A DNA stretch of 46,300 nucleotides from Candidatus Gastranaerophilales bacterium (lineage in GTDB: Bacteria; Cyanobacteriota; Vampirovibrionia; Gastranaerophilales; Gastranaerophilaceae), in assembly GCA_944323735.1 (NCBI GenBank), contig CALUTO010000015.1, positions 1 to 46,300 of the forward strand. Direction: 5' to 3'. Below are positions 3,532 through 11,626 of this stretch, one piece after another. Made by a program: the position numbers and the translations under genes. Each line of letters begins with the position of its first letter. Position 1 is the first letter of the stretch. The notes under the pieces are model-generated. The model saw nothing but the letters and a program-made list of their open reading frames with translations. It was not told the origin of the DNA and did not search any database.

Positions 3532-3924
3532 TTATTCACCTTTTTTACCAATACCGATTTTTGCCGGCAGTGACTTAATCCAGTTCCAGCTTGCAGCTGC
3601 TTTTGTATTGATATATTCACCTGCCTGAGCAACATATCTCAGACCTTTATCATACCATTTTGCACCTTCAGCCGCAGCCTGTGTTAAATCAATGTTTTTC
3701 AATGCAGGTAAATATTTTCTGCCAAGACCTAATGCAGCACCTACAACAACAATAGCACCGACCGTCTTTAATAACCAGTTATTGCTTTTCTTTTTTGGCT
3801 CTTCACCGTTGATTGGTGTACTTGCGGCAGGCTGCTGTGCAGGCTGCTGAACAGTAAATTTAGGCGGACGTGAAATTGTTTCCTGTGACAATGGTACAAT
3901 TCCTGCTGGAAAGTTGATTGACAT
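3532..3924 (-). CDS. Small single-pass membrane protein, unknown
   Basis: The start is the ATG at 3922-3924, placed 8 bases after AAGGAG; a GTG in frame at 3933 overlaps that Shine-Dalgarno and is rejected. The product has 130 residues. A polar, Q/P/A-rich N-terminus (about 1-45) is followed by a hydrophobic, glycine-rich segment (about 50-68, V-G-A-I-V-V-V-G-A-A-L-G-L-G). An amphipathic alanine-rich C-terminus ends in a lysine-rich tail. It has its own terminator and stands alone between divergent genes, so it is probably well expressed. I recognise no family. Confidence 0.75.
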   Translation of the reverse strand: MSINFPAGIVPLSQETISRPPKFTVQQPAQQPAASTPINGEEPKKKSNNWLLKTVGAIVVVGAALGLGRKYLPALKNIDLTQAAAEGAKWYDKGLRYVAQAGEYINTKAAASWNWIKSLPAKIGIGKKGE

Positions 3925-4164
3925 AATAAACACTCCTTTTTTATCTTTTATTACATATTTTTAATATACCTTCACTGCAATAACATAAAACCAGAAAATG
4001 TTTTTTTATTGCTAAGAGACCAGTTTTTTTACACTAATGTGATACATTTCTTTACATTATAACACTAATTTATTTATTTTGGAATATTTTTTTTTGAAAT
4101 GTTATCTAAGTTAATAGAGTGATTTTTATATTACCCGTGCTTCACTCAAAGAGAGGTAAAAAGT

Positions 4165-4491
4165 ATGGAACCATACAAATCACTTGCGGTATTAGCCGCA
4201 CTTGAAAAGTTGTATTGCCTGGAGCAGCACATTGCAGAGTCTCCAAAAAACAGACACCCCTTTTTGAGTACGGAAGCCGGAAATAAAAAACAAAAGGATG
4301 GAGTTAATAATTACAAAAATTACTTAAACGAAAAATACAAACAAGCCGAAACTCTTACGAACTGTATTCAAAAACAAACCGGTTTAAATATCGAAAACAG
4401 GAAAAGAATTCCGTTTTTCAGACTTATTCTAAAAAAGATGGAAAAAGAATTTCCTCCGATACCGGAAGTCCAAGAATGGCGGGAAGTATAA
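4165..4491 (+). CDS. Small hypothetical protein at head of the sigma/anti-sigma block
   Basis: The product is a 108-residue, basic, mostly helical protein with no membrane segment and no recognised motif. GAGAGG lies upstream at a suitable distance. It is 31 bases upstream of the large anti-sigma-like gene on the same strand with no terminator between, so the two are likely co-transcribed. A role in the same signalling block is inferred only from position. Confidence 0.65.
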   Translation: MEPYKSLAVLAALEKLYCLEQHIAESPKNRHPFLSTEAGNKKQKDGVNNYKNYLNEKYKQAETLTNCIQKQTGLNIENRKRIPFFRLILKKMEKEFPPIPEVQEWREV

Positions 4492-4522
4492 TCGGCTCCG
4501 ATACACAGGAGGAGAGATATAA

Positions 4523-7201
4523 ATGCAAAAAGTGAATAAACTTGTTCTGGATAACGCAAAAAATCTGGCAATAAAATTGTCATCGGAAGAAATAAGAAAA
4601 AGAGTTTTCGTGCTCAGTGCGGCAGCTATGTCTGTCAGCGACCTTTTAGATGACGGTGACTTGAAATTAAAACATAAAAACAGTTTATTCAAAATAACGG
4701 CATTAGATGATGTTCTTGAGATAGCAGATTTATACTCCGATGATGTCAGAGTAGATGTTCGTGTAATTTATGACGGCAACACTTTCTATGTGCCAAAATC
4801 CCATGAAAAATTTTTTGCAATTCCTGAAATATATCTTGTAGTAAGAATGACTCATGATATTGAAAATATAGAACCAATCGGTTTTATAGAATCGGGTAAT
4901 CTGCCCAAAATACAAAGCAACACGGAATATTTTGAATACAATGTAGATATTTTAAAACCAATAGGCGAATTAAAAAATGCAATCAGCCGGATAGAAAAAA
5001 AACAACAAATTTTTTCAAAAGAAGCTCATGCAAAAATTGAAGAACTGGCCATTGCTTTTTTAGATAATGAAATTTCTGACAGTGAAAAAATCTATTTTAT
5101 ACAGCACCTGATGAAATGTCCGTTCTGCAGAGAAAAACTTTCAGAAATGAATGAATTCGATAATGTTGTAAAACAGTTGAACAAATATCCTGATCTTTTA
5201 AATGATCAGACACTTGATATTCTGACAGGAGCATTAACAAGAGCATACAGCCTGCCCGAAGCACAGCCTGTGTATCTGCCTGATGATGACGAGGAAGAAG
5301 CAGAAAACGAAAGTGCGGACATACTATCAGACGGCAATTTTTCCGGCAATGAAGAAAACAGTCAAGCACCGGAAGAAGAAACAGATGATGAAACAGAAAG
5401 TTTTCTGGTTGAAGACGATGAAGAAAAAATAAATGAATACGAGACCGATAGTTCCACGTCTGATGAAATATTATCAGGAGAACCCCTGCTTCAAACCGGG
5501 ATTTCAGAAGAACCGGGCGCATCAGAAATTGCCGGTTCTGAAGTTGCTGATGAAAACATTGAAGAATCATTAGATGAACAGCCTGCGGGTATAATTCAGA
5601 ACGCAATTCAAAATGAATACAAAATTATGCCAGCTGAAAAACCGGAAACAGATAATGAAACACTAATTTTGACTGAAGAAAATAAAGAAACTTCTGAAAC
5701 AAAAGACTCTAATGATGATGACGACTTTCTTCTTGACTTTGCAGATGAGGATGATTTATCAGAAACATCCGATGATGAAGAAAAAGATGAAATGCAGAAA
5801 GAACTAACATTTCAGGATACAGAAAAAAACACAGAAAACAATATCGAACCTGAAGATCTTGACTTCATTGACGAGAACAAAACTACCGCAAATAATCCGG
5901 AAAATCTTTCGACAGGAGAGACTGAAGAATTAACCGAAAAAAATCCTGAACAAGTGAATGACTCAAAAAATTCCGGAACAATAACAGAAGAAACTTTTGA
6001 TACAGAAACGAATAATGCAGAAGAAAACGAACCAATTAATATAAATGATGACACAGCGGAAAATTTAGAACTTGATACTCTAGACGATGACCTTCTGCTT
6101 TTAGAGGATAAAGACGATCTTGATATAAATATAGACAATTTGCACCTGGATACAGAACAAACATCAAATCTGTCCGATATAGAAGATATTCAACCTAAAA
6201 TAGAAGAAGAGTCAGAGCCGGCAGTTTCTTCTGCTGCCATTGCTGTTGATAACGGAAAAGCAGAAAATACCGATGAACTTGACAACAATGAATTAGAGGA
6301 TTTGCTGGATGATAATCTGAAAAATATTCTGGGCTTTAATGAATCTGATGATTTGACAAAAACAGAGAATACAACAGAAGATTTAAATTTAGAAAATCTC
6401 ATGGACGATGAACTAATTCAGCTGCTCGAAGACAATAATGCAGAAAATGTAAAAAAATCTTCAGTAACATCTGATTCAGTACCTAAACAAATTGCACAAA
6501 AATTATCACAAATTGATAATGACGAATCAATAGAAATGTTATATGACGAAACACCGCAGGGTGAAAACGGAGAAGCTCAAATAAATATACAGGAATCTCC
6601 TGTCGTGAAATCTGCAGTAAACAAAACTAAAAAAATAGCAGTATCTTTATTTTTGATACTGATACTGCTTGCAGGCGGAGCAACGACATATTTTATGAAA
6701 TTCGGAAAAACAACAAACAATGTCACCGGAGGAGATGATAATAGCGGAGATGAAAATGCATTGTTTGACTTTGCCAATAAACCGGCCGAAACTGAAGAAC
6801 CACCGGTTCCGCAGGATATCAACAAATCAATGACAAATGTATTCTCCGAACAGCCTGCCGCAATAACTATCACAAAAATTTCATGGAATGTAAGCGACAA
6901 ACTTGCACAAAATGAATCATTTAAAAATTATTTACAGGTTGCAGGAAAAAATCTGCAAATCAATCTGCAGAATGATCTGGCAAATACAACTGAATTTGCT
7001 TACAACAATAAAATTCACCTGAATTTCCAGGTCACAAAAAATAATGAAATTAAGAATTTGCAGGTTCTTGACTCCAGCGGTTCGGAACAAATTGACAACG
7101 TTGTGTTACGAAGTATTAAAGAAACTCTTAAATATGTCAATGCCCCTAATTTAAAAGATATTAAGGGTGATTATAACCTTTCTCTGGTAATAAATTTTTA
7201 A
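4523..7201 (+). CDS. DUF1822-like / zinc-finger anti-sigma-like membrane protein with TonB-like C-terminus
   Basis: This 892-residue protein has a clear modular layout. Residues 1-125 resemble, from memory, the cyanobacterial DUF1822 domain (I-A-D-L, then R-V-D-V-R-V, V-P near 90, ending in P-I-G-F-I). Residues 165-215 hold H195-x3-C199-x2-C202, the H-x3-C-x2-C signature of zinc-finger anti-sigma factors. Residues 255-690 are a very acidic D/E/N/T/S-rich linker. A single transmembrane helix lies at about 704-726. The C-terminal 115 residues look like a TonB/TolA C-terminal domain (V-L-D-S-S-G-S-E-Q-I-D then a terminal helix and strand). A sigma-factor gene follows 80 bases downstream. The inferred role is a membrane-anchored regulator that binds the sigma factor inside and senses or spans the envelope outside. 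Confidence 0.82.
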   Translation: MQKVNKLVLDNAKNLAIKLSSEEIRKRVFVLSAAAMSVSDLLDDGDLKLKHKNSLFKITALDDVLEIADLYSDDVRVDVRVIYDGNTFYVPKSHEKFFAIPEIYLVVRMTHDIENIEPIGFIESGNLPKIQSNTEYFEYNVDILKPIGELKNAISRIEKKQQIFSKEAHAKIEELAIAFLDNEISDSEKIYFIQHLMKCPFCREKLSEMNEFDNVVKQLNKYPDLLNDQTLDILTGALTRAYSLPEAQPVYLPDDDEEEAENESADILSDGNFSGNEENSQAPEEETDDETESFLVEDDEEKINEYETDSSTSDEILSGEPLLQTGISEEPGASEIAGSEVADENIEESLDEQPAGIIQNAIQNEYKIMPAEKPETDNETLILTEENKETSETKDSNDDDDFLLDFADEDDLSETSDDEEKDEMQKELTFQDTEKNTENNIEPEDLDFIDENKTTANNPENLSTGETEELTEKNPEQVNDSKNSGTITEETFDTETNNAEENEPININDDTAENLELDTLDDDLLLLEDKDDLDINIDNLHLDTEQTSNLSDIEDIQPKIEEESEPAVSSAAIAVDNGKAENTDELDNNELEDLLDDNLKNILGFNESDDLTKTENTTEDLNLENLMDDELIQLLEDNNAENVKKSSVTSDSVPKQIAQKLSQIDNDESIEMLYDETPQGENGEAQINIQESPVVKSAVNKTKKIAVSLFLILILLAGGATTYFMKFGKTTNNVTGGDDNSGDENALFDFANKPAETEEPPVPQDINKSMTNVFSEQPAAITITKISWNVSDKLAQNESFKNYLQVAGKNLQINLQNDLANTTEFAYNNKIHLNFQVTKNNEIKNLQVLDSSGSEQIDNVVLRSIKETLKYVNAPNLKDIKGDYNLSLVINF

Positions 7202-7223
7202 AATTTTTCTAATTTAAAAATCT

Positions 7224-7255
7224 ATGTTATTATAAAATCAACAGGTTATACCTGT
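7224..7255 (+). promoter_or_regulatory. Possible internal promoter with 15-bp dyad upstream of sigma gene
   Basis: A TATAAA-like -10 lies just left of an exact dyad, ACAGGT-TAT-ACCTGT (7241-7255), in the gap between the anti-sigma-like gene and the sigma gene. The arms are 6 bp with a 3-base centre and no T-run follows, so it looks more like an operator than a terminator. The -35 is weak (TTCTAA with about 18-base spacing). Confidence 0.35.
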
Positions 7256-7281
7256 GTTTATATAGAGATGGGTTAGGGAAA

Positions 7282-7893
7282 TTGGATACACTTGAAAAAC
7301 AACGGACAATTATAGAGAGACTTGTTAGATTAAACAATAAATACATCGGGAACGAAGATTTATTTGAGGACTTTTGTTCAGAAGCCTACAAGCGTTCGTA
7401 TACACTATTTGAAAACAACGAAATAAAAAATTTCGAAGGATATCTGGCTAAAGTAGTTAATACATCTATTCTCAATGTTTTAAGAACATCCGGACGCATA
7501 AGACGCCATTCAAATAAATATGTTTCGACCCATGAAGTTTTGATTGACCCTACACCGGCAAAACAGTTTCTTCCGGAAATAGCACCGGTGCCTGCCGTAA
7601 TAGAACCGGTCTTTTCGAGCAATGAGCCCGTAAGTTTGTACAATGTTTCTGATCCGAAAGACAATTTCGAAGAAAAAATTGTAAGAAAAGATTTGTTACA
7701 AAAAGTTGTTGATATTGTACTCGTTGCACATAGAAATAATCCAAATAAAGAATATTTAAGAATTTTCTTTTTGAGATATGTAAAAGAGAAAAAACAGCGT
7801 GAAATTGCTGAAATAACCAATCTTTCACAATCTGAAATCAGTAAAAGACTTCTTGAAATAGCTGAAATCGTAAAATTTCATTTCAATAAATAA
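7282..7893 (+). CDS. Sigma-70 family (ECF-like) RNA polymerase sigma factor
   Basis: The product is 203 residues. The N-terminal part (about 20-75: E-D-L-F-E-D-F-C-S-E-A-Y-K-R, then F-E-G-Y-L-A-K-V-V-N) fits sigma region 2. A proline-rich linker spans about 85-125. The C-terminal helix-turn-helix (about 165-195: K-K-Q-R-E-I-A-E-I-T-N-L-S-Q-S-E-I-S-K-R-L) fits region 4. It would direct RNA polymerase to a dedicated promoter set. The start is a TTG after TAGGGAAA; an ATG 14 bases upstream runs into a stop after two codons. Its position directly after a zinc-finger anti-sigma-like gene supports a cognate pair, and the low-efficiency TTG start may keep its level low. Confidence 0.82.
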   Translation: MDTLEKQRTIIERLVRLNNKYIGNEDLFEDFCSEAYKRSYTLFENNEIKNFEGYLAKVVNTSILNVLRTSGRIRRHSNKYVSTHEVLIDPTPAKQFLPEIAPVPAVIEPVFSSNEPVSLYNVSDPKDNFEEKIVRKDLLQKVVDIVLVAHRNNPNKEYLRIFFLRYVKEKKQREIAEITNLSQSEISKRLLEIAEIVKFHFNK

Positions 7894-7954
7894 TACAGAT
7901 TTTAAATTTTTATAATATAATAATTCTATAAATGTAATTAGTTGGTATATTATC

Positions 7955-10900
7955 ATGCATTGCATTCGATGCAAAAAAGAAATAGACTCGAAAAGTTTAA
8001 GATGTAACTTTTGCGGTGCAAAAGTGCAGACAGTTTGTCCTGTCTGTAAAACCTTAAATGCTATCACTGCAGAATACTGTTCAAACTGCAATTTACAGCT
8101 TTTAAAATATTGTCCGGCATGCAAAAGTGCAAACCTGCCGAATGCAGAAAAATGCAGAAAATGTTCTTACCAGTTCCCTGTAAAACAGCAGTCTCAAATT
8201 TCACAGAACAACACAGGAAAAACATACGACAGCAATGTTTCAGACAACAGCACTGCACCATCTATCGCAGAACCCAAGCCTTTTTCTCTCTTTCAGGAAC
8301 AAAAAATCGAACTCCATTCTTCACTTGACGAAACAGAAGAAATGAAAGACTTAAATTCTGCACAACCGCAAACAGAAGAATTACCTGAAATTTCAGTAAA
8401 AGACTCTGGCAATATTAACACAGATAAAATCGAAGAGCTTCAAGAAAGCGTTATTGAGGACGATTTTGCAGACGATTATGAAGCACTTCTCAAAAAACAG
8501 CAGGATGATGAATTTTCTGATGACGCAGTTGAAAACAAAACCGAGTCATTAGATACAGAAGAACAAAACGTTGCCGAAATTGATTATTTTGATTTAACAG
8601 CACTTGCAGATGAGGATGAATATTTTTACGGAGAGACCAATGAGCCTTCTGAGCCTGCTAACATACCGGAACCGACAATAAAGTCAGCAGTTGTTCCCAA
8701 TGAAGAGCAACAGCGGGCACAGGAAAAACCAACTCCAAAGACTGCACAGCTTCAGGAACAACAGATGCCGGTACAGGTAAAACCTGCTATACAGGCGGAT
8801 GAAAAAAAAAATGAACCTGTGGTTCAAAATTCTGGGGAAAAAATAGAAGAATCTGAAAACACAGAACAAACACAGGAACAAACTGTTCAGGGCTTTCTTG
8901 ATGAAGCAATGCCGGAGTTAGACCAGCTAAAATCAAAAAATTTAATGGTTGCAGCGGTTAAAAGCAATGACAAAAAAATAATCGGACTCAGCAGTGCAGA
9001 AGGACACGGAAAATCAACAGTCCTTAGATATTTGTTCAATGAACTCCAGCCTCTAAAATATGCATGGCTGTGGGGTGAATGCAGTGCTAATTCCCAAATC
9101 ACCCCGTTTGGTATTTTTCAGGAAATGTTCTTAACATTCTTTAACCTGCCGGATTATACAAATATGTCAAACGAGTTCCAGAAGGAGACAAAAAAATTAT
9201 TTCAGAAAATTGTTCCTGCACTGACAGAAGAAGAAAACAAAAATCTGTTTAACTTTCTTTATCCGTCTTTAACTGCTCATTTTGAAGAAATTCTTGTTAA
9301 TAAAGAATATACATTCAAACTGCTCGAAAAAGTTATTCTTGAAATATCAATGCATTCAAAATTGATTATTGTAATAGACGATTTTGACATGATTGACGGT
9401 GCTTCTTATGAATTTTTGATGAATTTTATTAATGAGGATTACCTTTCAGAAAATATAAAATTAGTTGTTGCATATAAAGACAAAAGAATATCACAGGGCT
9501 ATTTTTACTCTGAAAAAATAGCAGAAAATGAATATCAGGATGTATTCCTCTCTAATTTAACGCTTGAGCATGCACTAAATTTAACAAAATTGTTCATGAA
9601 TGGCAGAAATCCTATTCCGGAACCTATCTTTCAGAAAATATACACAAATTCCGGCGGAAACAGTGCGTTTATAGAACAAATTCTTGTATTGCTTAATGAA
9701 AATGACGCATTTGACACAACTAACAATGAAATAAAATACAAATCCACACCGCTGGAGCTCAATCTGCCGAAAAATCTATATGAAATATTGACAAAAAGAC
9801 TTGATTTTCTTAAAGAAAAATTCCCGACCGTATACAGAACCCTCTGTACAGCAGCTATTATGGGAAACAAGTTCAATATAAAACTACTGGAACACGTCAT
9901 GAAAATCAGTTTTGACGATTTTAGAAATATTATACAGCTGCTTGTAAACTATGCGTATATCAGCCAGTTTAATGACAATATGTTCGCATTCAAAAACACA
10001 TTGATGTGGAAATTTGTCTATGAACGGGCAAAGATAAGCGAAGATTTTACATTGCTGAACGAAAGAATTTTTGACGTAATCAACAACTACACATTATCCA
10101 GTAATGCGTTAAAAGCACTGGTTGCACAGAATTTGAACCAGAAACTTCTGGCAATGAATATATGGACAGACAATATAAAATTGTGTGCATATCTTGGCGA
10201 CGAACATCTCTGGGCTCTATCCCAGAAACAGTGTCTGAAAATTGCGCAGGAAATAAATCCTGAAAATAACAATCTCGTCATAACAAACATTCAGGAAAGA
10301 CTCGGAAAACTCCTCTATCTCTCAAAACCGTCTGAAGCAATGAACTATCTGTCCAATGCCCTGTCTACAGCGGTAAAACTCGGTAATAAACCCAAAATCA
10401 TTGAACTTGCCGGATATTTATCAAAAAGCTGTGATGCAATCGGAAACTATCACGGTGTAATAGAAACCGTAGACACTGTTTTAAAACTGATTGATTACCC
10501 TGAATACAAACTTGAATGTGCGTTAATTAAATATAAAAAGCTGAAGGCGATTTTAAGCATCGGAAATTCAGAAGAAATATACAATATGGCAAGCAACGAA
10601 ATTATTCCGGTTATAGAACAGGCAATTGCGCAATCAATCCCGACAAAAGACATACCGGTGGATATAATCTACGAAACGTGGCTGGAATGTAATTTGATTG
10701 TTGCAAATGCTTTGATATTACAGGGAAACAAAAAATGTTTGAATGTTTTGAGCTTTATTGATGAAATTATCTCAAAAAATCATATTAACAATAAAAATTA
10801 CCTAATAAGAGTCGCCCTGTCAAAAGCTCTGGCATACACTATGCTGGGTATTATCAAAAAATCCGAAGGTATTTTAATAGAAATTTCGCAAAAAACAGCA

Positions 10901-11626
10901 AATGATATTGTCGACCCTGAAATAATATCCCAGTGGAACTTTATAAATATACTCAATAAAATAATGAAACGTGACCTTGTAAATATAAAAGAAGAGCTTT
11001 TCTCTGTCGTCACATTTGCCAATAACTACAATGATGTTCTCATCAAAAACCTGCTAAAAACATTTCTGGGTAAAGTTCTGCATGAGGAAGGAAATCTTTC
11101 AAAAGCTCTGGATATTTATAATGAACAGGTTGCTATTTTTGCAAGAGAAAAAATTGCAGTGGGCGCACTGCTTTGCTGGTATTACATTGCAAAAGTTACA
11201 CTCGTTACAGACGGAACAGACAAAGCTCTTGATATTACCCAGAAAGCTCTTGATGTAGCCAAAAATCCGAAGATAAATAATTACTATTTTATGGTGCTCT
11301 ATAAACGCTTAATAGCTGAAATTTATATCATAAAAGGCGATATGGAAGCAGCCAGAATGTATATTGAAAAAGCACTACTTATTGTGAAAACTTATGGTAT
11401 GAAACTGCATAAAGTTATGCTGTACGAACTTTATGCGAAATATCTTGAAGAGATGATGCACAAGAAACCCCAGAACAAAAACAGCTATGCACAAAAAATT
11501 ACAGAAACTTACAAAAAAGCCCTTGTAATGATAAAAGATATGGAAATACCGAATATAGAAGCAGAAATTCAAAACGACTTTGCATCATTCAAAGCATACT
11601 GTCAGCTGAACGATATCAGACTTTAG
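7955..11626 (+). CDS. Triple zinc-ribbon / STAND-type ATPase with C-terminal TPR-like repeats
   Basis: The 1223-residue protein starts with three consecutive four-cysteine zinc ribbons (C3/C6-C17/C20, C28/C31-C42/C45, C53/C56-C67/C70). An acidic linker covers about 76-305. An AAA/STAND-like NTPase follows, with Walker A E-G-H-G-K-S-T near residue 350 and Walker B I-I-V-I-D-D-F-D near 470. About 500 residues of helical TPR-like repeats complete the protein, as in signal-transduction ATPases. No kinase, cyclase or DNA-binding output domain is apparent. It begins 61 bases after the sigma gene on the same strand, so it is probably part of the same regulatory block. There is no clear Shine-Dalgarno before the ATG. 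The protein is probably cytoplasmic. Confidence 0.85.
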   Translation: MHCIRCKKEIDSKSLRCNFCGAKVQTVCPVCKTLNAITAEYCSNCNLQLLKYCPACKSANLPNAEKCRKCSYQFPVKQQSQISQNNTGKTYDSNVSDNSTAPSIAEPKPFSLFQEQKIELHSSLDETEEMKDLNSAQPQTEELPEISVKDSGNINTDKIEELQESVIEDDFADDYEALLKKQQDDEFSDDAVENKTESLDTEEQNVAEIDYFDLTALADEDEYFYGETNEPSEPANIPEPTIKSAVVPNEEQQRAQEKPTPKTAQLQEQQMPVQVKPAIQADEKKNEPVVQNSGEKIEESENTEQTQEQTVQGFLDEAMPELDQLKSKNLMVAAVKSNDKKIIGLSSAEGHGKSTVLRYLFNELQPLKYAWLWGECSANSQITPFGIFQEMFLTFFNLPDYTNMSNEFQKETKKLFQKIVPALTEEENKNLFNFLYPSLTAHFEEILVNKEYTFKLLEKVILEISMHSKLIIVIDDFDMIDGASYEFLMNFINEDYLSENIKLVVAYKDKRISQGYFYSEKIAENEYQDVFLSNLTLEHALNLTKLFMNGRNPIPEPIFQKIYTNSGGNSAFIEQILVLLNENDAFDTTNNEIKYKSTPLELNLPKNLYEILTKRLDFLKEKFPTVYRTLCTAAIMGNKFNIKLLEHVMKISFDDFRNIIQLLVNYAYISQFNDNMFAFKNTLMWKFVYERAKISEDFTLLNERIFDVINNYTLSSNALKALVAQNLNQKLLAMNIWTDNIKLCAYLGDEHLWALSQKQCLKIAQEINPENNNLVITNIQERLGKLLYLSKPSEAMNYLSNALSTAVKLGNKPKIIELAGYLSKSCDAIGNYHGVIETVDTVLKLIDYPEYKLECALIKYKKLKAILSIGNSEEIYNMASNEIIPVIEQAIAQSIPTKDIPVDIIYETWLECNLIVANALILQGNKKCLNVLSFIDEIISKNHINNKNYLIRVALSKALAYTMLGIIKKSEGILIEISQKTANDIVDPEIISQWNFINILNKIMKRDLVNIKEELFSVVTFANNYNDVLIKNLLKTFLGKVLHEEGNLSKALDIYNEQVAIFAREKIAVGALLCWYYIAKVTLVTDGTDKALDITQKALDVAKNPKINNYYFMVLYKRLIAEIYIIKGDMEAARMYIEKALLIVKTYGMKLHKVMLYELYAKYLEEMMHKKPQNKNSYAQKITETYKKALVMIKDMEIPNIEAEIQNDFASFKAYCQLNDIRL

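Follow-up and report, generated by a model that had tools for sequence, protein, structure and literature searches.

What do four neighbouring genes, among them one that joins an anti-sigma domain to a TolA/TonB-like domain, do together? The window analysed here is a 46,300-nucleotide stretch of contig CALUTO010000015.1 in the 2.06-Mb genome assembly of a Candidatus Gastranaerophilales bacterium, and the four genes, which we call A, B, C, and D, lie on one strand of it at 4165-11626. A preliminary description had placed four same-strand genes here and read them as a possible envelope signalling system, and all four open reading frames are found at these positions, separated by gaps of 31, 80, and 61 bp. 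(Coordinates of A-D and their parts are window positions on the + strand.) Our answer is that A-B-C-D seems to be a variant, so far undescribed, of a well-known type of envelope signalling: we put the chances somewhat above even that the block is an autoregulated extracytoplasmic function (ECF) sigma/anti-sigma operon, and we are less certain of the sensor and output steps than of this core. Such an operon would provide a concrete example of envelope signalling in a gut lineage that is mostly uncultured and about whose regulation little is known.

The core consists of C and B. C (203 aa, TTG start, 7282..7893) scores 57 bits against TIGR02937, above the cut-off of 42.9, and has sigma2 and sigma4 regions, which makes it an ECF sigma factor and agrees with its first identification as a sigma factor. 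B (4523..7201) is an 892-aa single-pass membrane protein that resembles anti-sigma factors, and its residues 167-229 (5021..5209) form an RsiW/RslA-like domain with the motif H-x3-C-x2-C at residue 195, the zinc finger that had been noticed at the outset. A profile of 35 B homologues matches RsiW with an E value of 8e-5, the fold of the domain matches RsiW (Z 6.6) and RslA (Z 5.4), and 11 of the 35 homologues match zf-HC2. Given the homologous domain, the motif, and the adjoining ECF sigma gene, B classes by its sequence as a class I (zinc-type) anti-sigma factor, and it is predicted to bind sigma. The domain is followed by an acidic cytoplasmic linker of about 470 aa (residues 230-694, 5210..6604), which is 32 % Asp or Glu and probably disordered, and then by one transmembrane helix (residues 705-725, 6635..6697) with basic residues on its N-side, which by the positive-inside rule places the N-terminus inside. 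Both the long acidic linker and the single helix are as the preliminary description had them. A linker motif, L-x-x-[LM]-[LMF]-[DE]-[DE]-x-L, was found in close relatives only. In two genera in which none of the genes is linked, the B proteins (L109 4652-6193 and L111 4369-5943; 513-524 aa) keep all the folded domains and have nearly lost the acidic linker, so linker length may track operon linkage.

Is this pairing maintained in related bacteria? We surveyed gene order in 88 genomes of the order, in families labelled f1-f7. B, C, and D are all present in 77 of these genomes, also where they are unlinked. B and C each occur in one copy, and they adjoin each other in 60 of the 78 genomes that have both, across six families (f1, f2, f3, f4, f5, and f7), so the early expectation that these genes would be neighbours in relatives holds for this pair. 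D adjoins C in most of f1, in f5, and in one f7 genome. Conservation of the proteins throughout an order puts the block far beyond chance. A contig search with a single protein matched only three Gastranaerophilales metagenome-assembled genomes, and one near-complete genome of the family lacks B, C, and D altogether. The RsiW match, the adjacency, and the orientation of the helix all speak for the proposed sigma/anti-sigma pair with an envelope-facing TolA/TonB-like domain, as does the occurrence of sigma-DUF1822 pairs in photosynthetic cyanobacteria.

The block is preceded by an ECF-type promoter, GGAATATTTT-N9-TGTNATC (4081..4106, + strand), with a fixed length of 26 nt and an ECF-like -35 element, GGAAT. 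It lies in a divergent intergenic region shared with the gene of a small protein with one transmembrane helix (3532..3933, - strand), and its spacing is invariant over 18 distinct sites. In the window's own genome the motif occurs once exactly and never with a single mismatch. Of the 19 exact copies in 59 relatives, 17 stand 5′ of B at a distance of 24-414 bp, as do 5 of the 38 one-mismatch copies, and 22 relatives have an exact or one-mismatch copy there. A one-mismatch copy precedes B in f6, and two-mismatch copies are found just 5′ of B in f4 and f2, where the expectation is about 0.0005 per 400 nt. B also retains the promoter in two genomes in which D is unlinked (G011 and G022). We infer that C reads the promoter. 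A relaxed search for a wider regulon gave sites with two or three mismatches in modest excess over a reversed-pattern control; no shared target genes were evident by site sequence within the genus, and a generic sigma-70 promoter scan was not above shuffles. The sole exact matches that are not 5′ of B (G028 contig C6 46917-46942 and G094 contig C91 2882-2907) are possible extra targets.

Several observations weigh against an autoregulated operon of this kind. B and C are apart in f6 and in some f1 genera, with some of these breaks being contig ends; in three near-complete genomes B is kept and C was not detected at the threshold; and linkage of D is missing in f2, f3, f4, and f6 and in several genera of the window's own family. 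The H-x3-C-x2-C zinc ligands are absent from many relatives of B, so zinc is not essential to it; anti-sigma domains without zinc are common, and mixed groups are known (PMC7406223). Because B promoters served to derive the motif, finding it at B is partly by construction; it does recur before B in genomes outside the derivation set. The ECF-like -35 element and the position of the motif are the sole grounds for assigning it to C, and D appears to lack the promoter where it is unlinked, since no copy was found at up to three mismatches in the D loci searched, those of g20.

Weighing both sides, we propose a circuit of the following kind. The RsiW-like domain of inner-membrane B, with a DUF1822-related domain in front of it, would hold C inactive in the cytoplasm, and the TolA/TonB-type domain, which resembles a strand-binding domain, would read an envelope partner from the periplasm. 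A changed envelope contact, through proteolysis or a conformational change, would then release C from B. Freed C would transcribe mainly its own operon from the promoter described above and so give more B, more C, and here also more D, which on the simplest view would act in the cytoplasm as an output or modulator made together with the switch. RsiW/SigW-type pairs are alike in having a helical H-x3-C-x2-C domain, a single transmembrane helix, an adjoining ECF sigma gene, and an autoregulatory-looking promoter. Unlike those pairs, B adds the DUF1822-related front domain, the acidic linker, and the TolA/TonB-type periplasmic domain, the anti-sigma gene precedes the sigma gene, and a STAND ATPase is in the operon. 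A bolder version, which we offer tentatively and would not bet on, is that B represents a new kind of anti-sigma factor that spans the membrane, with a TolA/TonB-type periplasmic sensor, a dead DUF1822 domain and acidic tether that tune the grip on sigma, and a STAND executor made from the same near-unique, self-activated promoter.

Could D instead be where the signal enters? D (1223 aa, 7955..11626) begins with three zinc ribbons, seen as six CxxC in residues 1-72 (7955..8170), and continues with a Walker A motif (SAEGHGKST, 8990..9019), a Walker B motif (KLIIVIDDFD, 9359..9388), and MalT-like TPR repeats (residues 1027-1165, 11033..11449). With these repeats, matches to AAA_16 and AAA_22, and intact Walker motifs that are recognisable in nearly all of its homologues, D is a STAND ATPase, and its description as a triple zinc-ribbon protein of this type was correct. 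A PDB search found no sequence relative of D. An identity as a TOMM kinase/cyclase was rejected, the match being far below cut-off with only the ATPase region in common. Like MalT-type STAND ATPases, D has an AAA_16-type ATPase followed by MalT-like TPR repeats; it differs from them in its three N-terminal zinc ribbons and in that no C-terminal DNA-binding domain was detected. MalT-type STAND ATPases act as signal-driven switches, and D could likewise be an upstream cytoplasmic sensor whose ATP- and ligand-driven assembly strips C from B, with the TolA/TonB domain merely an anchor. That D shares the operon in most of its own family, and that the three genes are co-retained across the order, is in keeping with this. 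However, several families have D away from B-C, and B has a C-terminal domain whose sequence is conserved and which is therefore expected to be more than a mere anchor, so we regard D as an unlikely sensor. The original suggestion that the STAND ATPase acts on the sigma/B pair is left unsupported by the same breaks in linkage and by the lack of the promoter at the unlinked D loci tested.

If the proposed switch instead senses through B, the nature of the periplasmic domain (residues 784-892, 6872..7198) matters. Its fold matches at ranks 1-24 are all TolA or TonB (TolA Z 9.9, TonB Z 8.7), and 14 of 14 B homologues have a Pfam TonB_2 match (best E 4e-8). This fold, together with the genome's ExbB-ExbD-ExbD set and the detection of ExbD in all of the 21 genomes tested, might suggest that B is a TonB/TolA-type envelope protein driven by ExbB/ExbD, whose anti-sigma domain merely reports its state. 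However, the SxxxH motor-coupling motif is absent within the transmembrane helix of all 21 B proteins (the sole regex match falls outside the helix), and the genome's own tonB-exbB-exbD-exbD operon, which already provides a TonB-like gene for that motor, encodes a TonB-like protein that has it. The helix of B also lies about 700 residues in and not at the N-terminus, and a TonB-dependent receptor Plug domain was found in 4 of the 21 genomes tested and in none of the genus, the window's own genome included. We consider an energised B improbable, more so than D as the sensor, and its identity as a TonB was rejected on the missing SxxxH. Classical FecA/FecR signalling was rejected as well, no plug domain having been found in the window's own genome. 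Because it has no SxxxH and its genome no detectable TonB-dependent receptor, B appears from its sequence to be neither a TonB motor nor a classical (FecR-type) cell-surface-signalling anti-sigma factor. The call of a TonB-like C-terminus thus stands for the fold and passes the profile check, and it is unlikely to hold in the motor sense. Here, then, a TolA/TonB-type domain is part of an anti-sigma factor, and the lineage is one in which TonB-dependent receptors mostly go undetected.

A known system close to this one is PUMA3 cell-surface signalling (VreA-VreI-VreR, PMC2729926), which is alike in having an ECF sigma factor and a TolA/TonB-type C-terminal domain without an outer-membrane receptor of its own. 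In PUMA3 that domain is on a separate, mostly soluble protein, VreA, with an STN signalling domain, whereas here it is on the anti-sigma factor and STN was not detected. The TonB/TolA-like gene of the window's genome, with ExbB and two ExbD genes after it, lies on contig C4 (L104 16545-19434); in relatives, Plug domains are mostly undetected.

At the other end of B, residues 1-160 (4523..5002) form the DUF1822-related domain, which is recognised through homologues and not by the window protein alone. Matches that exceed the cut-off of the DUF1822 Pfam model (PF08852) occur in 57 of 146 related genomes and in 0 of 14 controls, 32 of the 35 alignment members of the B family match DUF1822, the window protein itself having no match, and hhalign aligns the domain with cyanobacterial DUF1822 at 97.5 % (E 7e-12). 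Coverage of the profile in B homologues is of its N-terminal half only. An AlphaFold2 model of residues 1-238 has a mean pLDDT (predicted local distance difference test) of 89, and the top fold matches of its first domain are mostly PD-(D/E)XK proteins (Hjc, DpnI, I-Ssp6803I, and Eco15I), with best Z scores of 8.0-8.5 and a Foldseek E of only 0.03. Where the catalytic (D/E)-x-K would be expected, at a likely equivalent position placed by inspection, the domain reads (V/I)-P-K, so we take it to have a likely nuclease fold and to be probably dead catalytically. A cyanobacterial DUF1822 example has I-P-P at the presumed position, and a PDB search with cyanobacterial DUF1822 found no sequence relative. 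DUF1822 is common among cyanobacteria and uncharacterised as a family, and B thereby offers a candidate function for it, in sigma regulation, and a likely fold.

The pairing of a sigma gene with DUF1822 is old and partly noted in print, because at least 17 of 30 cyanobacterial DUF1822 loci have a sigma-like gene as the immediate neighbour of DUF1822 and neighbouring ECF sigma and DUF1822 genes are mentioned in a paper on conflict systems, in EACC2/caspase neighbourhoods (PMC8195603). Those cyanobacterial pairs resemble B and C in having DUF1822 beside a sigma gene and a homologous N-terminal domain. One cyanobacterial DUF1822 protein (L098) is full-length with no other Pfam domain, whereas B keeps the N-half, fused to the anti-sigma, transmembrane, and TolA/TonB parts; no description of such a fusion was found in the open-licence library searched. 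It is very improbable that the block is a conflict or defence module akin to the cyanobacterial counter-invader systems (ECF sigma, DUF1822, and EACC2/caspase) or to CRISPR type III-E Csx29-Csx30-sigma, since, against the published neighbourhoods, a CHAT gene beside one cyanobacterial DUF1822, and a resemblance to the sigma/anti-sigma/protease logic of CASP (PMC10028731), neither a protease nor a toxin domain nor an active nuclease was detected in A-D, and the genes are single-copy and stably present across the order, unlike mobile defence loci. PADLOC gave only a weak Csm4 match to B, and the defence reading was rejected because no PADLOC match was credible. Stand-alone soluble DUF1822-like proteins of about 405 aa occur elsewhere in the class (L199 4346-5557 and L200 3819-5039), and the neighbour of the L200 gene encodes a double-zinc-ribbon protein, a domain type shared with the N-terminus of D.

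The first gene of the block, A (4165..4491), encodes a 108-aa protein without a known family, as had been supposed; it was found only in the genus. Small divergent genes comparable to the one that shares the promoter region lie 5′ of B in most of the family, with BLAST homology for some of them. In one genus the sigma gene is longer, encoding 476 aa, and has no match in Pfam (L203 4842-6272). The window's own genome also encodes, on contig C4 at about 17.1-18.4 kb (L104 3160-4448), a second ECF sigma factor and an anti-sigma factor with apparently two zinc-finger-like modules and one transmembrane helix.

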